DNA from: Prosthecobacter gellanilyticus
GTDB lineage: Bacteria; Verrucomicrobiota; Verrucomicrobiia; Verrucomicrobiales; Verrucomicrobiaceae
DNA: 64,000 nucleotides
NCBI RefSeq assembly: GCF_007992435.1
Contig: NZ_BKAG01000031.1
Coordinates: forward strand, 1 to 64,000
Direction: 5' to 3'
Part shown: positions 9,120-45,100 of the stretch, piece after piece
How positions within the stretch are numbered: the first letter of the stretch is position 1
How the letters are laid out: every line of letters starts with the position of its first letter
Translations under genes and position numbers: made by a program
Notes under the pieces: model-generated
Seen by the model: only the letters and a program-made list of their open reading frames with translations
Told to the model about the DNA's origin: nothing
The model's database searches: none

Positions 9120-12100
9120 TCACTTCACCTTCAGCACCCCGCGCATGATGATCCCATGCCCGGGGAAGGAGCAGATGTAAGGATACTCACCCGGCGCAGG
9201 TGCGGTGAACTCAATCACCTCCTCCTTCGCGTGATCCAGCAGCTTCGTATGCCAGATCACATCGCCACCTTCAGGAATAAAGCCATTCTCAAAACCCTTC
9301 GCACCCATGGCGATCGCCGCATTCATGATGGCGTCCGCTTTGCCCGGTTTCAGGATCAGCAGGTTGTGCGGCATCACATCCGTGTTCGCAAAGGTAAGCT
9401 TCACCTTCTTGCCGGACTTCACCGTCAGTTCCTTCACGTCATACATGAGACGCTCAGGAATGGTCGCCACGCGGATCGTCGTCAGTTCTGGTGTGTCACT
9501 CAGCACACCGGACTTCTGCGCCTTGGCTTCCACCTCACCGGCGATGACCCCGCCCTTGGTCGTGGCTTCCACATTGAACCAAAGCTGCTGCACCACATTC
9601 GCCGCGTTGCGCGCATGAAGCTCAGGCGATTTCTGAAGCTGGCCTAACAGAGCCAGATCACGCACATTGTGCTGCTGATGCACCCACAGGGCTTCCAGCA
9701 GATGATGCGCATCCTCTTTCTTCGTCGCATCAAACTGCTTCATCCATTCTTTGGTCGCCGCGATGACCTCAGCCGTGGGTCGCTCACTGAGTTCCACACG
9801 CGTGCGATGACGCACACCATCCGCCGGATGCTTCAGATTCTCCAGAAGTGCGGGGATCGGCTGTCCATCAATGGCCACGGCCTTTTGCAACTCCCGGCCC
9901 TTCGCCGTCATGCGGTAGATGCGGCCATGCTTGTGGTCACGGTTCGGGTCACGCACGTTGTGCTGCATGTGGCCAATGATCACATTGTGCCAGTCGGCGA
10001 TGTACAGCGCGCCATCAGCGCCGAAGACCGTATCACTCGGACGGAAGTTCTTGTCACCGCTCATCAGCAAACCGCGTGACTTGTCCTCGGTGATGCTGCC
10101 ATCAGCCTGCACCGTCTTCACGGTGAGCTCGGCGCCTGCAGGCTCTCCCCACACCGTGCCAGACTCGGCATTGCGCGCCAGATCATAGTGCTTGATGCCC
10201 AGGAAGCCGATGACATTGGAGATCAGGAAGTCACCCTGCATGTCCTCCGGGAAATGCGTGCTGCTCACGATCTCGCTCGCCGTCACAGGCCGCACTTCCT
10301 TCTTCAGCAGCTCATGCATCTTGAAGCCATTGCCTTCGGGCCGCACCTGATACGCACGACCACCCGTGCCATCCGTGGCATACTGATAACCCCACGAGTC
10401 GAAAGCGATGCCGTGCGGATTCGGCGAGTTCGCTGCGTGCATGGCGATGGTGAACCGACGCGGATCAAAGCGATACATCGCGCTCGCTCCCGTTTGCAAA
10501 GACGAACCCCACGGATGCTCATGATTGTGCTGCATGAAGACACCGCTCTGCCAGTAAATGCCACCATCCGGTCCCATGATCAGGTTGTTGGCACCATGAT
10601 GCGTGTCCGCGAAGTCCACGCCTTGCAGGATGATCTGCCGCACATCCGCCACATCATCACCATCAGTGTCCTTCAGGAAAAGAATGTCCGGCGCACTGGT
10701 CACAATGACCCCGCCATTCCAGAACTCAAAGCCCAGCGGATTCTGCACGCGCGCAAACTCCGTCACGCGGTCGCACTTGCCGTCGTTGTTGTCATCGTGG
10801 CAGATCACCAGCGCATCCTTCATCTCCTTCAGCGGCTCCCATGTCGGATAGGTATGCCAGACCGCGGCCCAGATGCGGCCCTTCGTGTCCACCTGAAGCT
10901 GCACCGGGTTCACCAGCTGCGGAAACTGCGCCTCGTCCGCAAACAAGCTCACTTCAAACCGTGGATCAAAGGCCATGTGCTGGATGGCTTCCTGCCCGCC
11001 GATGTATTTCAGCGTGCCTTCCTTGACCGCGCTGGATGACTTGCTCTTGCCGCCGACATTTGAGATCACTGGCACAGGCTTCGGCACATTGCTGTCATCG
11101 ACCTTCTTGTCCTTGCCTGTCGCGCGTGCCCACACCTTCTCATCACGGTTGGCGGTCATCACATCCAGCATCGTCAGCTCATGCTGCAGCACCACCGCAT
11201 TGGTCTGGCCATCGGTGAAAGCCAGTGTGGAGCGGCCGCCCCACACATCGTTGCCATCACGGGCGCGATACCGTGCATTCCAGTGCATGTCCTTGTCCAT
11301 CACCGCTTCGCGCAGTTCTTCCATGGAGGGCGATGCACTCACCTGCTTGCCGATCAATGCCTTCGCAATCACTTCAGCGAGCTGACGATTCCCCTCAGAT
11401 GTCAAATGCACACCATTGATCGTTAGTGGCTCCTTCGCCGCTTGGAAAAGCTCCAGTGAAGGATGAAAGAGATCCACAAAAGCCACTCCCGCCTCCTTCG
11501 CCGCAGCCTCCGTGGCCTTCGTGTAAGCTTCGAGCTGTGCGTTGTGCTCCTTGCCGCTCGGCACGTTCACATTCTTCGTGTCCTCATGTGCGATGGGGCT
11601 GAAGAGCACTATGCGTGAAAAAGTCTTCCCGTTCGCCTTCGTGCCACGCACATACTTCACAAAGTCCAAAAGCTGCTTCTGATACTCTGCGGGCTTGTTG
11701 TCGAACGATTCGTTATACCCGAAGAACGCAAACACCGTGTCCGGCTTCACATGGCGGAGGTAATCCGTCATGTGCATGTGTCCGCCGCTGCGCGGGAAAG
11801 AGTTCGGCCGGTCACCACTCGCGCTCATGTTGCGGAAGCGCACGTTCAGCTCTGGCAGCGCGCTTTGCAGCAGCGTCTCCATCCAGCCATCATGCTGCAT
11901 GCGGTCGGGCAGCCCATTGCCCAGAATGGCAACTGTCTCGCCCTTCGTGAAGCTGAAGGGCAGGGCATCCTTGTAATCTGCTGGCACCGGGAAAAGCTGC
12001 GGCTCCGGCTTGCTGCCACCGCCGCTCGCTTCCTTCGCGGGTGCAGGTTTGCCAGGCTTCCCCTCAAACGTCAGATAGGTCAGCTTGCCACCGCTCTTGA

Positions 12101-13583
12101 TATCAATCGTCATCGACTCCGGTGCCGCCACGTTCTTGATCTCAAACACCGCTTTCCGCGAGTCATCCAGCAACTGCAGCGTAAAGCCACCCAGACGTTC
12201 AGGGAAACTTTTGCGGCTCCACAGGCCGATGCTGTCCACGGCCTGCGCGGCGCCTAGATCAACCTCCCACCAGGTATTGGGCTGATTCTCTTTCGTGTGA
12301 GTCTGCCCGCTCCTGCCCCAGTCCGGACTCTTGTTCCCATCAAAGGCTCTCTCGGCCACTCCACCATTGGTCGTGGTCGATTGCGATGCCTTGCCATCCT
12401 TCCCCACATTCTTGCCACCGCTCATGACTTCGACCTCGGCAATGTTTAGGCAGCGCTTGTCTCCAGGAAGCTCGATGCGCACATAGCGCGCGGGCTTGCC
12501 CGTCACGATGTTTGGCTTGGCATCCACATCCGTCTTCGCGGCCTGCGTCTCCTCTTTCTTCACCGGCTTCGGACCACTCCCCTTCGTGTTGTTGTTCGCC
12601 GGAATCGGGCTGGTGAAGCCCGCATACATCTCCGGCTTGATGCCACGCGCATAGGCTCCACCTGCAAAGGTGTTAGGCTTCCCGGCACCGACAAAGGCGA
12701 TGTTCATGTCCGCCTTGATCGCATTCTCCAGCCCCAGCGCCCAGAAGCATCCGTTCACCACCATGCGGCGATAGCCTTCATTCGTGATGTCTTCCGAAGT
12801 GCCATACAGCGTGGTGAAAACACGCCCTTCCTTGCCCGACTCCGACTTGTAGGTGCGTGTCCACTCACTTGGCATTGGCGGCTTTGTGCTGTCGGCAGGC
12901 GAGTCAGGTGTCATGCCATTCAGCGGTTGCGCCATCGTCAAAACATCACCCGAGATCGGCTTGCCCACATACCCACCGGCCTGCACCCAGATGTCCTTCA
13001 CTCCACGCAGGATCGGATGCTGCTTCATCGCATCCACAATGCTGATGCGCGTGCTCTGCTGATGATTCTTGCCGTAGTGTCCCACCCAGGTCTGTCCCAG
13101 CACCTGATGACCGAAGCCCTTCTCATAACCACTGACGTTGCTGTCGAAGGAGTACTTCGCATACGGATCATCCTTCGCCGTCTTGAATCCATGCGTCGCC
13201 GTGCGCAGTCCCACCACGGGACCACCGCGTTTCAAATAGGCATCAATATGCTTCATCTGCTCGGCAGGCAGCCCCTGGAAGCGCAGAAACACCACCGCCA
13301 GATCCGCGCTCTCCAGCGCCTCGAGTCCAGGGATATTCGACGGATCACCCGCCGAGATATTACCATCCTGATCAATATCAAAAAGCACCGTGCACTTGAA
13401 CCCATGATGTTTCGCCAGGATGCGCGCCAGGGCCGGCAGACTCTCCTCGGACCGATACTCATGATCCCCCGCGATGAAGACGACATGCTTGCCCTTGCCG
13501 GGCCCATCGGTGCCTTCATAAACAAGCGGCGCAGCGCAGGCAAACCCTGCGAAGGTGAAGAGTGCGAGGAGGAGATATTTCAT
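9120..13583 (-). CDS. Giant multidomain protein: ThuA, discoidin, SGNH, PVC dehydrogenase propeller, cupredoxin
   Basis: This 1487-residue exported protein has a signal peptide at residues 1-17. Domains read in order: ThuA-like glutamine-amidotransferase fold (about 20-285; VFIAGDHEYRSEE); F5/8-type discoidin carbohydrate-binding domain (about 350-500; WWEVDLGA); SGNH/GDSL hydrolase-like domain (about 535-755; AILGNGLPDRM, GYNES, GVHLTSEGNRQLA). A PVC-type membrane-bound dehydrogenase beta-propeller follows (about 860-1240), with calcium-loop-like DDNNDGKCD and DTDGDDVAD. Then comes a helical, HEAT-like stretch, and last an azurin/plastocyanin-like domain. That domain keeps type-1 copper ligands: His in MPHN, then Cys, His and Met in CSFPGHGIIM. 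The set suggests extracellular sugar binding, deacylation and oxidation with electron transfer to copper. It lies 97 bp downstream of the sigma-led operon. Substrate is unknown. Confidence 0.85.
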   Translation of the reverse strand: MKYLLLALFTFAGFACAAPLVYEGTDGPGKGKHVVFIAGDHEYRSEESLPALARILAKHHGFKCTVLFDIDQDGNISAGDPSNIPGLEALESADLAVVFLRFQGLPAEQMKHIDAYLKRGGPVVGLRTATHGFKTAKDDPYAKYSFDSNVSGYEKGFGHQVLGQTWVGHYGKNHQQSTRISIVDAMKQHPILRGVKDIWVQAGGYVGKPISGDVLTMAQPLNGMTPDSPADSTKPPMPSEWTRTYKSESGKEGRVFTTLYGTSEDITNEGYRRMVVNGCFWALGLENAIKADMNIAFVGAGKPNTFAGGAYARGIKPEMYAGFTSPIPANNNTKGSGPKPVKKEETQAAKTDVDAKPNIVTGKPARYVRIELPGDKRCLNIAEVEVMSGGKNVGKDGKASQSTTTNGGVAERAFDGNKSPDWGRSGQTHTKENQPNTWWEVDLGAAQAVDSIGLWSRKSFPERLGGFTLQLLDDSRKAVFEIKNVAAPESMTIDIKSGGKLTYLTFEGKPGKPAPAKEASGGGSKPEPQLFPVPADYKDALPFSFTKGETVAILGNGLPDRMQHDGWMETLLQSALPELNVRFRNMSASGDRPNSFPRSGGHMHMTDYLRHVKPDTVFAFFGYNESFDNKPAEYQKQLLDFVKYVRGTKANGKTFSRIVLFSPIAHEDTKNVNVPSGKEHNAQLEAYTKATEAAAKEAGVAFVDLFHPSLELFQAAKEPLTINGVHLTSEGNRQLAEVIAKALIGKQVSASPSMEELREAVMDKDMHWNARYRARDGNDVWGGRSTLAFTDGQTNAVVLQHELTMLDVMTANRDEKVWARATGKDKKVDDSNVPKPVPVISNVGGKSKSSSAVKEGTLKYIGGQEAIQHMAFDPRFEVSLFADEAQFPQLVNPVQLQVDTKGRIWAAVWHTYPTWEPLKEMKDALVICHDDNNDGKCDRVTEFARVQNPLGFEFWNGGVIVTSAPDILFLKDTDGDDVADVRQIILQGVDFADTHHGANNLIMGPDGGIYWQSGVFMQHNHEHPWGSSLQTGASAMYRFDPRRFTIAMHAANSPNPHGIAFDSWGYQYATDGTGGRAYQVRPEGNGFKMHELLKKEVRPVTASEIVSSTHFPEDMQGDFLISNVIGFLGIKHYDLARNAESGTVWGEPAGAELTVKTVQADGSITEDKSRGLLMSGDKNFRPSDTVFGADGALYIADWHNVIIGHMQHNVRDPNRDHKHGRIYRMTAKGRELQKAVAIDGQPIPALLENLKHPADGVRHRTRVELSERPTAEVIAATKEWMKQFDATKKEDAHHLLEALWVHQQHNVRDLALLGQLQKSPELHARNAANVVQQLWFNVEATTKGGVIAGEVEAKAQKSGVLSDTPELTTIRVATIPERLMYDVKELTVKSGKKVKLTFANTDVMPHNLLILKPGKADAIMNAAIAMGAKGFENGFIPEGGDVIWHTKLLDHAKEEVIEFTAPAPGEYPYICSFPGHGIIMRGVLKVK

Positions 13584-13680: not shown

Positions 13681-17618
<3,938 letters not shown>

Positions 17619-17623
17619 AAGTT

Positions 17624-19945
17624 TCACTGGAGGAAAAGAAATTCCGGAGAGTTCAGCAGCGCCCAAAGAATATCCCGCTCAGGATCAGCACTGCCTTGGG
17701 TAAGCTTGGCCAGCTCCGCCACTTCATCGTCCGCAGGCTCGCGTACGAGCACCGCCTGATACAGAAGCCGCACACGCTCTTGTGCATTAGCCTTGGAGGC
17801 AGCGAGTGATCGTTGAAGCCAGGAGTCCTTCGCCAGAATCTCCCCTGTCAATTCACCATTCATCAGCGCGAGCGAGTGCGTCGTGTTCGGATCACGATTG
17901 AAGGCATCAATCTCACGCCGGTCCGACTGGCCAAACTGCCGCAGAAAATGCCCCAGCGCCAGTGGCAGCGGAATCTCCGAGGCCCGCACCATGCCAAAGG
18001 TGAGATGCTTCCATCGTGGATCCGTTTCTTTCGCAACGTATCCATGCCCCATTTGCATGGCTTTCAGTCGAGGACTGAAAAACTCCGCATTCTCCCGAGC
18101 ATGCTCAGACTGCAGTTGCTTGACCTTCGCCTCATCACCCGCATCGCGCGCCGCCTGACGTTCCTTGCTTTGCTCCACCAGCCGCAGTTGGAACTCACGA
18201 TTGCGCTTCCGGTATTCCATCTCATCCTTCGCCCGCTCGATGATCTCACCCGCACACATACGGCTCAGCTTGCGCAGCCGCTCAGGATCGATCTCCGATC
18301 CATCCGTGCGTCGCAGCGACTTCCGCTCATCCAGATCCTGTACAATCAGGGTCAGGCATGAATCCCAGATCTGCTCCGCAGAAAGCCGGCGCAGTTGCGG
18401 GCCGCGCAGATCAAAGGCCACCCCTGGCTGCGGCGTCTCTCGCACTGCAGCGCTTTGATAGAGTCGCGTGTTCAGCAGCGCTGCCGTGAAGCTGCGCTCA
18501 TCAAACTTCATCTGGATCATCGCCTGCGCTAGGATGTCCATCAGCGCCGCATGCTCCTTCGCAGGCAGCACTGAGAGACTGTCCACCGGCTCGATGAGCC
18601 CGACGCCCATCACCCGTTTCCAAAGCCTGTTTGCAATGTTCACCGCAAAGCGCGGATTGCGTGGCGACGTCAGCCATGCGGCAAAGGCTTCGCGTCGATC
18701 ACCTTCTGTGGCCGGTGCCTCATCACCAAACAGCGTGCGCGCCTCCACAGGCTTTTTGCGCAGCGTTTTGTCATACTCATAGGTCTCCGGAAAGGTGATG
18801 GACTTGCCCGTGTCCGTGGTCAGTCGCTTTAGCGTGGCAATCGTTCGGCTCACTCCTTGGCGCAGCGCCGTGTCAGCCTTCATGCTGTCCAGCTTCGCTT
18901 TGACCTCCGGCCACTGCTTCACATTCTTCTCGGAGAATCCCGCCGAGCTGCACATGTTCGTCACTCCAAAGGTGAACGCAGCCATCTGATAAAAGTCCTT
19001 CTGCGTCACCGGTTGCAGCGGATGATCATGGCATTGCGCGCACTCGATGCGCGTGCCCAGAAATACTCGCGTGAGGTTAGACATATGGTCCAGCGGCATG
19101 CCCATATCACGCACATAGAAGCCCACCGCTCCATTCTCCCAAAGATACCCGTTGGCGGTGATGAGCCGCCTCACATACTCGTCATAAGGCATGCTCGTGT
19201 GGATCGCCTCCTTCACCCATTCATCATAGAGCCATCCAGGCTGGCCCGGCAGACCTTGCGTGAGCAGCCGCAGCTGATCCGCCTTCCAGTTGAATAGATG
19301 ACTTTCATAGCCCTGGCTATTGATCAGTTCATCAATGAGTCGCGAGCGCTTGTCGCCTGCCTTGTTATCAAGAAATCGACGACTCTCCTCCAGGCTGGGG
19401 ATGCGTCCCATCACATCCAGATACACACGCCGCAGGAACACCTCGTCGCTGACCGGCGCATTTAGGTGGGTGCCACGCTTCTGATGATGCTCTTCCACCA
19501 GCCCATCAATCTTCACCGCCAGTTCACTCACCACTGTTGGTGCCTTGCTGATCTCCATCACCGGCCCGCGATGATCAAACTTCTGCCACTTGCCAAAGCT
19601 CGCACCACTGGCGATCCAGCGACGCAGCACTTCACGATCAGCCTCGCTCAGCGGCTGCGCTCCACCCTTCAGCGGCGGCATCACATCCTCATCGTTGATC
19701 GGCAGCGTGGCACGCGTGAGCAACTCGCTAGCCTCCGGCTTGCCTGGCACCAGCACATCACCCGCTTGGATGCCTGTCACGGAGTCCAGCAAGAGCCCGC
19801 CCTTCGGTTTCGACTGCTTCTCGCTGTGGCAGCTGAAGCAGTGATGATAGAGCACGGGCAGCACCTCTTTTTCGAAGTCAGGCGCGTCTTGCGCGGCACC
19901 GGCCGTCTTCGCCGCGAGAAGAAAGATGAGTAAAGAGCGCATCAT
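17624..19945 (-). CDS. DUF1549/DUF1553 protein with planctomycete-type cytochrome c domain
   Basis: This exported 773-residue protein has a signal peptide at residues 1-17. A planctomycete-type cytochrome c (PSC/PSD1) domain carries one haem motif CFSCH at about 36-40 with a following GGLLLDS. A DUF1549 domain contains YDEYVRRLITANGYLWENGAVGFYVRD and CAQCHDHPLQPVTQKDFYQMAAFT, whose CAQCH is a second CxxCH. A C-terminal DUF1553 domain contains ANRLWKRVMGVGLIEPVDSL and RRLSAEQIWDS. The two CxxCH motifs indicate haem binding and electron transfer. Its ATG overlaps the stop of the anti-sigma-like gene by 4 bp. With DUF1501 it likely makes a periplasmic redox unit acting on polysaccharide-derived compounds (inference). 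Confidence 0.9.
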   Translation of the reverse strand: MMRSLLIFLLAAKTAGAAQDAPDFEKEVLPVLYHHCFSCHSEKQSKPKGGLLLDSVTGIQAGDVLVPGKPEASELLTRATLPINDEDVMPPLKGGAQPLSEADREVLRRWIASGASFGKWQKFDHRGPVMEISKAPTVVSELAVKIDGLVEEHHQKRGTHLNAPVSDEVFLRRVYLDVMGRIPSLEESRRFLDNKAGDKRSRLIDELINSQGYESHLFNWKADQLRLLTQGLPGQPGWLYDEWVKEAIHTSMPYDEYVRRLITANGYLWENGAVGFYVRDMGMPLDHMSNLTRVFLGTRIECAQCHDHPLQPVTQKDFYQMAAFTFGVTNMCSSAGFSEKNVKQWPEVKAKLDSMKADTALRQGVSRTIATLKRLTTDTGKSITFPETYEYDKTLRKKPVEARTLFGDEAPATEGDRREAFAAWLTSPRNPRFAVNIANRLWKRVMGVGLIEPVDSLSVLPAKEHAALMDILAQAMIQMKFDERSFTAALLNTRLYQSAAVRETPQPGVAFDLRGPQLRRLSAEQIWDSCLTLIVQDLDERKSLRRTDGSEIDPERLRKLSRMCAGEIIERAKDEMEYRKRNREFQLRLVEQSKERQAARDAGDEAKVKQLQSEHARENAEFFSPRLKAMQMGHGYVAKETDPRWKHLTFGMVRASEIPLPLALGHFLRQFGQSDRREIDAFNRDPNTTHSLALMNGELTGEILAKDSWLQRSLAASKANAQERVRLLYQAVLVREPADDEVAELAKLTQGSADPERDILWALLNSPEFLFLQ

Positions 19946-21496: not shown

Positions 21497-23611
21497 TCAT
21501 TTTGACTTCACATAGCCCAGGTTGGCAAAGAACTCGTCCATCTTCGTCTTGGTCTCCTCATGCAGCTTCGCATCCTTGAACATGTAGGTGTGGATCGCTC
21601 CCGGAGGTGACACATACTCGATCCGGTTTCCCGCCTTCTTCATCTCCTCGACAAACACATTCGCCCCTCTGACCGGCGTCGTCGTGTCGCCATCTCCATG
21701 AAATAGCAGCGTCGGCGGCAGTCCGGCTCGCACCTGATGCGCTGGCGAGAGCTCCTTCCACTTCTCACCGATCTTCGCGTAGCCGTAACCCTCCAGCGAG
21801 GTGTCAATCACCGGCGAGAAAAGCACCAGCGCATTCGGATGGCAGGACACCTCCAGCTTCTCGTTCTTGTGATCCACGCCATCGAACATCGCCGTCGCCG
21901 CTGCCAGATGTCCTCCTGCCGATGAGCCATTCACAATGATCTTGTCCGGATCCACCCCGAGCTCTGCCGCATGCGCCCGCACATAGCGCACCGCCGCACG
22001 GGCATCCTTCACACATTCAAAGACCGTCACCGGCGTCCCAGGCTTGAAGAGCCGGTATTGCACACTGACCGCCACCATGCCGAGCTTCGCGCAATGATCC
22101 GCGAAGAGGTACATCGACTTCGGCCCGCCACTGGTCCAGCCGCCGCCATGAATGGCCACAAAGCACGGACGCTTGTCACTGGCCTTGAATCCTTCGGGCT
22201 CAAACACATCCAGCTTCAGCTCAATGCTGCCCACTTTCTTATACACGATCTGTCGCGTGGCCTTGATGCCGGCGGCCAGTTGCGTCGCATAGCTCGCCGT
22301 CTTCGCCTCAGGTGCCTTGTTGGCCACAAGCTGCGCTAGTTGAGTCTTGGTGGGCAGCTTGTTCAGCGCATCCTCACGGATCGTCAGATGCAGCACCTGC
22401 TGCCAGCGATGTGGCATGAAGAGATGCATCACCCCATCTTCCACAAAGGCATCCAGATACGAGCACTGCGAATTGAAGCCGCTCACCTTGTGAACCGGTG
22501 CCACCGCATTCGCCATGACAAACTTCGGCTCGCTCCAGGTGTGTCCTTCATCAGAGGAAAGGGAAGCCCACACCTCGCTGCGCATCTTCATGAGCTCGGC
22601 TTTGTCACTCAGCTCGCCATTGCCGGTCGTGGGCACCTTGTTGTGATGAAAGGCCACCAACGTCTTGCCATCAGAAAGCGGAAAGAGCATCGGCGGTGCA
22701 TCCGGATGCACCAGCGTGCTCGGCGCAGGCTTCGTCCAGGTCTTGCCATCATCCTGGCTCCACGCGGTGAAAAGATGCCCCTGCGGTGTGCGGGACATGA
22801 AGAGCACCTTGCCACCACCCAGGTTCAGCGGGCGACCTTCATCCATGCGGTTGAACCCTTCCGCTGCCCATCCATTCGGTCTCGCACCTGGCAGCACGTT
22901 CCAGGTCTTGCCCTTGTCCTCGGATCGAAGCAAATATTGTTGGGTCGTGAAAGGCTTCTTCGACCAATCCGCGAGGTGCGATCCCAGCAGCCAGGTGCCT
23001 GCATCCGTCTCCGTCATGCGCATCACGGACATGCCCATGAAGCTCGGATCATTTGTCGGCTCGATCAGCTTCACCTCTGACCACGTGCGCCCGTCATCAT
23101 CAGAGGTGCGCCACCCAATCGGAGCATTCTCACGCTTGCCCTCTTCCCATGTCCACTTGCCGGGAATCGGCTGTGTGCCGAAGCAATAGATCGTCTGCGT
23201 GCCCTTCGGAGTCAGCGGAATGAATCCATGCTGCCCATACGGAATGTCATAAGCCACCGCCGGCTTACTCCAGGTCTTGCCCTTGTCCGTGGACCGGCAA
23301 ACCATCATGGAGTTGATCTTCTCGCCCTTGCTTTTGGCATAGTGATCACCTTCTGGAAACATCAGCAGGTAGTCACCATTCGGCGTGACCGTCGCCCGCG
23401 TCTCCAGAATGCGCGTCTGCGTGCGATGCACCACCTGACCCCTCATCGCGGACGTGGAAAGCAGTCCCGTGGTCTTGTCGAGCACCAGCCCCTTGGGCAG
23501 AGCCTTGGCATTCACGTCGATCCCATTGACGGTCACCGTGTCCATCAACTGGAGCGGTTCCAGCGCCAGCAAGGGTGCCGTGGTGAGAAGCAGGAGGGCG
23601 AGCGGTTTCAT
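21497..23611 (-). CDS. Secreted fusion: Asp-box sialidase-like domain plus BD-FAE-type esterase
   Basis: The 704-residue product begins with a signal peptide (MKPLALLLLTTAPLLA). Residues about 30-410 are a six-bladed Asp-box propeller with RSTDKGKTWSK, TSDDDGRTWSE, RSEDKGKTWNV, WSQDDGKTWTK and SSDEGHTWSE. The first-blade region reads RILETRATV instead of the YRIP motif. Residues about 425-700 are an alpha/beta hydrolase with oxyanion HGGGWTSGGP, nucleophile NGSSAGGH, acid FHGDGDTTTP and a late His in GAIHTY. Both catalytic modules on one chain suggest coupled deacylation and glycan cleavage. ATG 23611 was chosen for the signal peptide. The operator at 23657 lies 46 bp upstream. Confidence 0.85.
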   Translation of the reverse strand: MKPLALLLLTTAPLLALEPLQLMDTVTVNGIDVNAKALPKGLVLDKTTGLLSTSAMRGQVVHRTQTRILETRATVTPNGDYLLMFPEGDHYAKSKGEKINSMMVCRSTDKGKTWSKPAVAYDIPYGQHGFIPLTPKGTQTIYCFGTQPIPGKWTWEEGKRENAPIGWRTSDDDGRTWSEVKLIEPTNDPSFMGMSVMRMTETDAGTWLLGSHLADWSKKPFTTQQYLLRSEDKGKTWNVLPGARPNGWAAEGFNRMDEGRPLNLGGGKVLFMSRTPQGHLFTAWSQDDGKTWTKPAPSTLVHPDAPPMLFPLSDGKTLVAFHHNKVPTTGNGELSDKAELMKMRSEVWASLSSDEGHTWSEPKFVMANAVAPVHKVSGFNSQCSYLDAFVEDGVMHLFMPHRWQQVLHLTIREDALNKLPTKTQLAQLVANKAPEAKTASYATQLAAGIKATRQIVYKKVGSIELKLDVFEPEGFKASDKRPCFVAIHGGGWTSGGPKSMYLFADHCAKLGMVAVSVQYRLFKPGTPVTVFECVKDARAAVRYVRAHAAELGVDPDKIIVNGSSAGGHLAAATAMFDGVDHKNEKLEVSCHPNALVLFSPVIDTSLEGYGYAKIGEKWKELSPAHQVRAGLPPTLLFHGDGDTTTPVRGANVFVEEMKKAGNRIEYVSPPGAIHTYMFKDAKLHEETKTKMDEFFANLGYVKSK

Positions 23612-23656
23612 GGTTGGAAACATGCCATGGAGACGGCTCCTCCTTAGCATTGTTGC

Positions 23657-43069: not shown

Positions 43070-45100
43070 TCACGGCTGCAGACGGATCGTGCCTTGGCGT
43101 ACTGAGAAGCAGTCATCGCCGGAGAAAATGAGATGCACCTTTAGCCCGTCTGCGCTCATCCATTTCGCGGGCAGGTGCATCGTCTCGCCTGGTCCCACAT
43201 CCCACTCATCCGTCTGATAGGCGACCGTCCACGGCCCCCAAGGTTCTGGCGCATCATAGATGGTGAACCCACCGCGATAGCGTGTGTCCTCTCCGCACCC
43301 CATCTGGCACCAGAGGTAACGTTTAAGCGCCGGATTGTAGGAGATGCTGGATCGATAGCAGGCACCCGGGTTCTTGAGCAGCGCACCTCGATCGCGAATG
43401 TCGGCGGACCACTCGGGCACGCCGCCTTTCCCCAGCCTGGCCAAAAACGCGTAAGCGGATCGGTCTCTCAGCTTTTCCTTCGGCACACGGGCCATGACGA
43501 AGCGATCGGCTCGTTCATAGGCACTGTCAGAATCATGCGAGTAAAGGTAGACGAAACCATCCCGGGCACCTGTGTAGTCTTTGCCAAAGGTCACAAAACC
43601 CGGGCAGCCAAAGCTCTCGGCAAACTTCCAGTCCGCCCAGGTCCAGGTCACCCCATGATCCGATGACCAGCCGAGTTGCGAGTTCGCCGCATTGCGCACC
43701 AGCATGTAGAGCACGCCATCCACACTGAGCATGCCGCTGGCCTTCCGACCATGCTTCCCATCACCAATGGCCTCAGCCGTGCCGGAGCGAAGATTTGTGC
43801 CGGTGATCTCTGGCGGCGCTCCTGTGATCTTCACCAGTCCCAGGCTGAGCTTCTTTTCCACGAAAGGTTCGAAGCCCTTTCCATCACCATAGGCTGAATA
43901 GAGCGCATCATCGTCTGCCCAGGCCAGCGGCCAGTTGTCACTACCCTTCGCGAGACGAATGATCTTGTCTGCGGGCTCCCAATCAATACCTGCAATGAGC
44001 GGACTCGAGGCCACTGTGGACTTAACCCCCACCTTTGCGCTCTTGGAGTTCCTGGCCGCTGCGACAATCGGCAACAAAAAGGGTTTCAAAACTTCATAGT
44101 GATCCTCACCCTCCGTGCGTTTCCAAGATTGCCCTGCGCGAGCAACGACCATGTCCAGCGTCGGCATGACCACGATGAGGCTGTCGAAGAGTCCCCAGGT
44201 CCAGTAAGTGTCCAGCGGCAGGCCCTCGATCATCTCATCCGCATTGTTCCACCACAGCAGCCCATAGTGCTTCGCGGCATGTCCATAGTGTTCAGGATTG
44301 CGCACCTTCAGGCCGGGCACGCCGGGCTGCGCGGTGCGCACCTGATCCACATAATCACGTGGCAGGATCGCCTTGCCATTCCATTCACCACCCCGCAGCC
44401 ACATCAGACCGAAACGTGCCATCGCATCCATATTCGCACTAAACCCAGAGCCAAACTCACGGCTCTTGATGCCTTCCAGCAGCTCCGGCCGATACGCATG
44501 TTTTCGCCAAACCAAATCCGTTTTCAAAATGCCCAGCGGTGTGAAGATGCGTTCAAACATCACCTCATTCAGATCGCGTCGATAGGCCAGTGTCACGCAC
44601 TCAGCGAGCCAGTTGGGGCCCGAGTCACTGTAACTCCACTCAGTCCCCGGCTTGAAGAGCAGCGGCACATATCCGCCTTTCTTGTCAAAGCCTGCCGTCT
44701 GGGAGGCCAGATGCCAGAGAGTGATCTCATCAATCCATCCTGTCTTCGCATTTTCATCCGGCGGCACGCCGAAGGTCGGATGATGCTGCTTCGCCTTGTC
44801 GCTGAGCTTCATCTTCCCATCTGCGATGGCGAGTCCCAGCGCCGCTGCCCCGAAGGACTTCGAGGTCGACTTCAAATCATAGCGCTTCTTGAAGTCACCC
44901 CACGTCATCACCAGCTTCCCACCCTTGATGATGCAGCCCGAGCCTTCGCCTGTCAGTGCGTGGTCCCGAGCTTCATTCAGCTTCGCTTCATCCAGGCCCG
45001 CCTCGGCAGGCGTGGCACGTGCCCACTCAGCATCAGGATATTCCACCGCCTGCAGAGGCTGGGTCAGTAAAAGTGATAGCAGCAGAATCCGTGGGCGCAT
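43070..45100 (-). CDS. Secreted fusion: beta-lactamase-fold serine hydrolase plus DUF4185-like propeller
   Basis: The 676-residue product has a signal peptide at 1-18. Residues about 25-345 form a class C beta-lactamase/EstB-like domain: nucleophile SxxK as STSK (about 79), second motif YSDSG (about 157; Asp replaces the usual Asn of YxN) and a C-terminal WWNNADEMIEG block. Residues about 365-676 form a five-bladed-looking propeller with WSSDHGVTWTWADW, GFVYLYSHDSD and YERADRFVMARVPK, resembling DUF4185. It is the third gene after a sialidase-like protein and a ThuA protein, 15 bp behind the latter. A sugar-ester-cleaving role fits the neighbours. Confidence 0.78.
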   Translation of the reverse strand: MRPRILLLSLLLTQPLQAVEYPDAEWARATPAEAGLDEAKLNEARDHALTGEGSGCIIKGGKLVMTWGDFKKRYDLKSTSKSFGAAALGLAIADGKMKLSDKAKQHHPTFGVPPDENAKTGWIDEITLWHLASQTAGFDKKGGYVPLLFKPGTEWSYSDSGPNWLAECVTLAYRRDLNEVMFERIFTPLGILKTDLVWRKHAYRPELLEGIKSREFGSGFSANMDAMARFGLMWLRGGEWNGKAILPRDYVDQVRTAQPGVPGLKVRNPEHYGHAAKHYGLLWWNNADEMIEGLPLDTYWTWGLFDSLIVVMPTLDMVVARAGQSWKRTEGEDHYEVLKPFLLPIVAAARNSKSAKVGVKSTVASSPLIAGIDWEPADKIIRLAKGSDNWPLAWADDDALYSAYGDGKGFEPFVEKKLSLGLVKITGAPPEITGTNLRSGTAEAIGDGKHGRKASGMLSVDGVLYMLVRNAANSQLGWSSDHGVTWTWADWKFAESFGCPGFVTFGKDYTGARDGFVYLYSHDSDSAYERADRFVMARVPKEKLRDRSAYAFLARLGKGGVPEWSADIRDRGALLKNPGACYRSSISYNPALKRYLWCQMGCGEDTRYRGGFTIYDAPEPWGPWTVAYQTDEWDVGPGETMHLPAKWMSADGLKVHLIFSGDDCFSVRQGTIRLQP

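Follow-up and report, generated by a model that had tools for sequence, protein, structure and literature searches.

A five-domain protein of Prosthecobacter gellanilyticus with a predicted type-1 copper domain in a tail position that relatives may give to cytochrome c

A single gene in the window, by which we mean the whole 64,000-nucleotide stretch of Prosthecobacter gellanilyticus DNA that was analysed, encodes a chain in which ThuA, discoidin and SGNH-like domains precede a beta-propeller and a C-terminal cupredoxin, and among relatives of this chain the position just after the propeller is taken either by a cupredoxin or by a class-I cytochrome c. This suggests that the C-terminal end of the chain carries electrons. 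The best explanation that we can offer, to which we would give a probability of slightly under one half (about 0.47), is that the protein works in the periplasm or outside the cell, acting on glycosides and carrying electrons. The domains, the copper ligands, the interchange of carriers and the presence of the join in many genomes are observed; the direction of electron flow, the class of substrate and the redox role of the propeller are what we infer from comparison with relatives and known structures. The features of the gene are as follows.

9120..13583, minus strand: whole gene, an uninterrupted reading frame with an ATG start, 1487 codons and a stop, encoding 1487 amino acids
13530..13583, minus strand: signal-peptide-like start, residues 1-18, read by eye from the translation
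12738..13448, minus strand: divergent ThuA domain, residues 46-282 (Pfam)
12072..12389, minus strand: discoidin (F5/8 type C) domain, residues 399-504 (Pfam)
11370..11939, minus strand: SGNH-fold domain, residues 549-738 (Pfam, alignment, Foldseek)
9900..10994, minus strand: beta-propeller, TIGR02604/DUF7133, residues 864-1228 (Pfam, NCBIfam, AF2, structure comparison)
9561..9857, minus strand: helical, HEAT-like stretch, residues 1243-1341 approximately (secondary structure of the AF2 model)
9123..9455, minus strand: azurin/auracyanin-like cupredoxin, residues 1377-1487 (Pfam, ligand alignment, structure matches)

The first-pass annotation, made from the letters alone, had read five domains in one exported polypeptide, and each of the five was found over its curated cut-off. 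When bit scores were compared with the Pfam gathering scores, all five matches lay above them: ThuA at residues 46-282 (42.2 against 33.4), F5_F8_type_C at 399-496 (37.8 against 28.2), Lipase_GDSL_2 at 565-733 (45.2 against 32.9), DUF7133 at 864-1228 (203.8 against 27) and Copper-bind at 1377-1487 (40.4 against 21.2). The propeller was also recognized by the PVC-type model TIGR02604 at residues 876-1229, with 178.5 bits against a curated NCBIfam cut-off of 122.2. The chain is probably periplasmic or secreted, export being read by eye from its signal-like start.

The same annotation had asked whether the domain order recurs in other genomes or whether the join is an error of assembly. When 56 genomes near that of the window (its own included) were searched, 50 held a match to the chain, and no fewer than 16 of the other 55 carried a match that ran, unbroken in a single frame, from query residue 1-13 to residue 1486-1487 (57-84 % identity). 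A scan of named genomes confirmed at least 578 relatives, of which the best 80 loci were kept; these gave 80 aligned SGNH-propeller sequences from 76 loci, the remaining four (L142, L165, L177 and L195) giving none, as their SGNH part was cut. Among the 80 sequences from these best loci, 33 have the order ThuA-discoidin-SGNH-propeller-cupredoxin, 14 of them with a further haem domain. The named loci are mostly labelled Verrucomicrobiota or Planctomycetota, L163 and L211 being among the few exceptions. Because so many genomes hold the same order, an assembly error or chimaera can be ruled out. The description of the SGNH domain as an insertion had to be given up, as the SGNH-propeller pair recurs both with and without ThuA and discoidin, and the latter two are the variable additions to that pair. 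In two genomes (G015 and G028) ThuA and the rest of the chain are encoded by separate genes with other genes between them, in one of the two a VanY/peptidoglycan-binding protein; each half of the split genes (L115:2581-8469; L116/L117) has a signal-like start as judged by eye. The split arrangement was considered as the ancestral state and rejected: both sequences sit within the clade of fused chains, so that later fission is likelier.

A conserved operon was likewise looked for and rejected, only seven of the 14 neighbouring genes in the window matching anything in the loci of relatives, and these mostly scattered. Members of one BLAST-linked family, of which a sulfatase (L130:10882-12450 and relatives) is the example, lie in 18 of the 46 orthologue loci, hinting at sulfated glycans. 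In five loci (L130:3003-6218, L138, L139, L140 and L154) a second SGNH-propeller-cupredoxin gene, about 35 % identical, lies in tandem behind the five-domain gene. Within the window itself, the protein encoded directly upstream (13681-16350, 889 aa) matches nothing in Pfam or NCBIfam at E 0.01; a DUF1501 protein overlaps a PSCyt1/PSCyt2/PSD1 protein at 16347-19945; BNR sialidase-like and BD-FAE esterase domains share one chain at 21497-23650; and at 43070-45100 a beta-lactamase-fold domain is followed in the same chain by a DUF4185 match below cut-off.

The four ligands of a type-1 copper site that had been picked out in the C-terminus (His1406, Cys1471, His1476 and Met1480) are all there and do not vary in any of the 62 aligned chains, with the azurin-like spacing Cys-x4-His-x3-Met; we therefore describe this domain as a predicted type-1 copper site. 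Its nearest solved structures are auracyanins and azurins (6kol at 39 % identity, 2aan at 34 %), and since the azurin equivalog TIGR02695 scored 41.3 bits, under its cut-off of 105.1, we call the domain auracyanin/azurin-like.

To describe the tails we used 105 aligned SGNH-propeller sequences, selected for long matches to both SGNH and propeller and comprising 100 different sequences, as some contigs occur twice. They were sorted by the domain that follows the propeller, leaving uncounted five that were cut at the 3' end. The 100 uncut sequences end in a cupredoxin alone (68), a cupredoxin and a haem domain (19), one haem domain (10) or two haem domains (3); with duplicates removed (n=95) the counts in the same order are 63, 19, 10 and 3. 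These tails can be described with two slots. Slot A, just after the propeller, holds a cupredoxin in 87 of 100 and a class-I cytochrome c in 13 (82 and 13 among the 95 distinct sequences), and there is no case of both or of neither; slot B holds a TIGR02603-like haem domain in 22 of 100 and is otherwise empty. Thus in single-haem sequences the class-I cytochrome stands where the cupredoxin would, the haem domain that follows a cupredoxin is TIGR02603-like, and in two-haem sequences the class-I domain comes first and the TIGR02603-like one second. Such an exchange is seen in G041, where the part corresponding to residues 549-1352 is 60 % identical and the chain ends in CxxCH. Plastocyanin and cytochrome c6 are known to exchange for one another, and a two-slot tail would be the intramolecular counterpart of that exchange. 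The genome from which the window comes encodes 31 propellers over cut-off, 28 ending in CxxCH, three in a cupredoxin and none in both; ten weaker propeller matches comprise one that ends in a cupredoxin, six with CxxCH and three with neither. Other chains of this genome combine related parts: a 1338-aa chain (L089:7873-11886, contig C5) carries a xylose-isomerase-like barrel, a laminin-G domain, a weak propeller match and a C-terminal cupredoxin; a 1660-aa frame (L086:3322-8301, contig C24) has two ThuA matches flanking a propeller and CxxCH; and a 3-keto-disaccharide hydrolase domain (PF06439), a cupredoxin and PA14 are found in one chain of contig C34 (L114:3849-6245).

How often slot A changed its occupant depends on the breadth of the tree. 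A careful tree of 77 sequences, for which 28 of the 105 (near-duplicates and cut sequences) were left out, requires five changes in slot A (5-5 over the bootstrap range), four being forced by its starred branches, and a single clade of all 13 cytochrome-bearing sequences is rejected (p-AU 2e-5, with a warning from the tool that long branches meet). In a core tree of 69 sequences, from which eight further deep ones were removed, the best topology needs three changes, two being forced by starred branches, and a single cytochrome clade is not rejected (p-AU 0.325). The safe statement from these sequences is that slot A was exchanged at least once within the core and more than once in the wider family. 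The linker between copper and haem domains is common to the 19 copper-then-haem sequences, the distant L210 included, which favours one origin of this joint followed by losses. If the joint arose once, the lineage of the window chain would be copper-only by loss, gain and loss being alike on the tree. A tblastn search at E 0.01 of 67 stretches downstream of copper-only genes (the window among them; 65 of at least 500 bases) gave no remnant of a lost cytochrome.

That the C-terminal domain may serve as an internal electron acceptor was also part of the first-pass annotation. The comparison with relatives lends this proposal partial support: the ligands are conserved, and the domain is exchanged for, or followed by, a cytochrome c, while the acceptor role itself is what such a pattern would imply. 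Copper ligands are intact in all 24 sequences of a further alignment (A3), 16 of which have both copper and haem domains. Slot A is shared by two unrelated electron-carrier folds, and the copper ligands are preserved in front of a haem domain. The most economical reading is that the propeller hands electrons to the tail; that they flow from a sugar to copper is suggested by the dehydrogenase fold of the propeller. An AF2 model of the copper-haem form (pLDDT 76.7, pTM 0.59) is too weak to judge contact between the domains.

A challenge to this reading comes from a characterized relative. According to the accessible part of its description, Lac161_ORF7, encoded on a cosmid assigned to Verrucomicrobia, comprises TIGR02604, HEAT_2 and cytochrome c domains, the last with CxxCH and the HEAT_2 domain lying between propeller and cytochrome; the purified haem-bearing protein liberated glucose from lactose, with a Km of 1.8 mM and a kcat of 13.2 per s, and was named a novel beta-galactosidase family by its authors, the measured act being cleavage of lactose and not oxidation (PMC5342196). 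The family therefore acts on glycosides, with cleavage as the activity measured. This leaves two possibilities: the propeller may work as a glycosidase, with the carrier serving some other end, or the sugar may be oxidized on the way to its cleavage. The first of these, a propeller that cleaves glycosides as hydrolase or lyase and passes nothing on to the tail, also draws on the close scores of lactonase-type propellers given below, but it leaves the strict either/or of two unrelated redox folds in slot A, and the retention of copper ligands in front of a haem domain, to some other purpose of the carrier; we consider it unlikely, although a substantial competitor. Cleavage via a keto-sugar intermediate would be compatible with both readings. 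Oxidation of lactose to 3'-ketolactose in the periplasm has been described, with cleavage by hydrolases of the 3-keto-disaccharide type proposed, in the portion of that report available (PMC9007349), and the chain of this genome that combines a 3-keto-disaccharide hydrolase with a cupredoxin (L114) is a further clue in this direction. By analogy, a reaction that first oxidizes the sugar to its keto form and then cleaves it would agree with both the lactose activity of Lac161_ORF7 and a redox tail.

What kind of propeller this is also bears on whether it would pass electrons to the tail. An AF2 model of residues 542-1487, built with 62 sequences, had pLDDT 91.4 and pTM 0.82. In the structure comparison (VIA-align 2), its propeller matched best the PQQ aldose dehydrogenase 3a9g (Z 27.9, rmsd 2.8, 282 aligned), followed by AA12 (Z 26.5), 2ism (26.4) and sGDH (24.1), and so has the fold of the PQQ sugar dehydrogenases; lactonase and DFPase propellers came just below these dehydrogenases (Z 23-24), and with scores so close the fold alone cannot separate the dehydrogenase from the lactonase type. 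The PQQ-binding residues of CcPDH are given, in the part of the source available, as His363, Arg430 and Asn431 (PMC6881789). When these catalytic positions were mapped by motif, the His (His996 in the window chain) was found in 104 of 105 sequences and the Asn (Asn1055) in 105 of 105. With this fold, and with His996 and Asn1055 in place, the propeller would most likely oxidize a sugar.

The same observations could also point to a conventional PQQ enzyme working with scavenged cofactor. Against this, the position of the CcPDH Arg430, just before the Asn, holds Pro in 96 of the 105 sequences by the same motif-based mapping, and a propeller profile searched against the PDB at E 1 gave 11 matches with no PQQ enzyme among them. 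Genes for PQQ biosynthesis also argue against it: PqqC had no match in the 99.9 %-complete genome of the window, in a search in which no control matched, and across 288 genomes of the phylum it matched in eight at E 0.001, with six over cut-off, results which show that the PqqC search works. These six (G062, G091, G103, G121, G201 and G313) all belong to family f8 and have genomes of 2.2-2.5 Mb. PqqE-like matches lie far under cut-off. Use of scavenged PQQ thus appears rather unlikely.

Electron flow in the opposite sense, in which the copper domain would feed the propeller or a partner and the protein would be a reductase, is suggested by nitrous oxide reductase, likewise a union of propeller and cupredoxin. 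The same two folds lie in one chain here, and N2O reductases are among the Foldseek matches, but at a query TM-score of 0.15-0.18 and an rmsd of about 25, and so there is no shared arrangement; dehydrogenases are the first structural matches of the propeller, and with its single Cys the copper site looks mononuclear and not CuA-like. A reductase is therefore improbable.

The first-pass annotation had also proposed that the chain would deacylate as well as oxidize, and the alignment does not support the deacylation. In the window chain Ser and Asp of the SGNH triad are replaced by Gly557 and Asn723, and His726 is kept. Across the 105 aligned sequences the nucleophile position is Gly in 76, Thr in 12, Ala in ten and Ser in seven, so that the catalytic Ser is gone in 98; the acidic position of the block-V Asp-x-x-His is Asn in 103, with Ala and Met in one each, and the block-V His is retained in 102. 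Not one of the 105 has a canonical triad, and none with Ser also has the acid, from which it follows that the SGNH domain is not a canonical esterase. That SGNH strips acyl groups and the propeller oxidizes the product is therefore very improbable, even though the SGNH fold is present (a Pfam match over cut-off and Foldseek matches to 8zbc and 7br2) and the block-III Gly and Asn are retained along with the block-V His. The ThuA domain is also divergent: in the window chain and eight other fused ThuA domains, as read by eye from the alignment, two His are replaced by Arg and by Thr/Ala, and both His are present in all eight usable sequences among the 18 ThuA matches of the same genome. One ThuA sequence in the wrong frame (L008) was ignored. 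The two His have only a putative role in catalysis. A single-sequence search of the ThuA stretch against the PDB gave no match at E 0.01. Judging from the residues lost, the modules in front of the propeller (ThuA, discoidin and SGNH-like) most probably hold or orient a glycan and carry out no canonical catalysis.

Our current working hypothesis is that the ThuA, discoidin and SGNH-like modules would bind or position a glycan and that the propeller would oxidize a sugar with the help of a cofactor, perhaps on the way to its cleavage. The predicted type-1 copper domain at the C-terminus would then serve as internal acceptor, through which electrons leave for another carrier. In relatives, a class-I cytochrome c could do this in the slot of the copper domain, or a TIGR02603-like haem domain after the copper could complete a probable propeller-copper-haem relay. 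A protein encoded on contig C18 of the same genome (L113:3201-4541) begins, as judged by eye, with a membrane-helix-like stretch and an Ala/Pro-rich linker in front of its cupredoxin, and it is a guess that this cupredoxin could be the next carrier after copper tails. Taken to its full extent, the hypothesis would define PVC glycan oxidoreductases as a class built on one propeller chassis, in which the electron exit is modular and the SGNH and ThuA modules, catalytically silenced, hold the substrate; the carriers of the two-slot copper/cytochrome tail would replace one another or act in series, and the cofactor would be other than PQQ. As a whole this is a tentative proposal, with the odds leaning against it.

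Should it be true, a redox-assisted reaction might explain the cleavage of glycosides by TIGR02604 proteins. One genome alone holds the 31 propellers of this family mentioned above, and our literature search gave one characterized member, Lac161_ORF7, a haem protein that cleaves lactose by a chemistry left unexplained in the accessible text (PMC5342196). The available part of another report states that the functions of the PSCyt proteins of Verrucomicrobia are wholly unknown (PMC5615132), and a survey of azurin genes counted 238 of 3147 Verrucomicrobia genomes with one, the words fusion and dehydrogenase being absent from its accessible portion (PMC8779525). A search of the literature, with most subscription papers outside its reach, gave no account of the window chain or of the copper/haem exchange. 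Working as proposed, the protein would be a natural propeller enzyme with a built-in electron exit, a design now engineered for sensors according to the accessible parts of two reports (PMC12011955, PMC6472588). With a blue chromophore beside the propeller, it could be followed optically and directly which substrate reduces the chain, the cytochrome-bearing relatives serving as matched control.

Among the closest known systems are the PVC-type heme-binding CxxCH proteins (TIGR02604 with TIGR02603, Lac161_ORF7 included), which share the propeller model that the window chain matches over cut-off, have the same succession of a helical stretch and a C-terminal redox carrier, and are represented by the 28 CxxCH-bearing paralogues in the genome of the window. 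The window chain differs from them in that its 1487 residues contain no CxxCH haem site, a cupredoxin standing in the place of the carrier, and in having ThuA, discoidin and SGNH-like modules in front. With the PQQ aldose and pyranose dehydrogenases (sGDH, PaeASD 3a9g and AA12 CcPDH) it shares the propeller fold (Z 24-28) and, as mapped by motif, the His and Asn positions, and the fungal AA12 enzyme CcPDH likewise has an electron-transfer domain of its own, a cytochrome b, in the part of the source available (PMC6881789); unlike these enzymes, the window chain has Pro in place of Arg, a copper carrier at its C-terminus and a genome in which PqqC was not found. Auracyanin and azurin have the same fold and ligands as its cupredoxin, but here the cupredoxin is the last domain of a long chain and not a free protein. 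Finally, the engineered fusion of PaeASD with cytochrome b562 likewise joins a propeller sugar dehydrogenase to a redox carrier; as described in the accessible text (PMC12011955), that fusion is man-made and carries haem b, and the window chain could be its natural copper counterpart.
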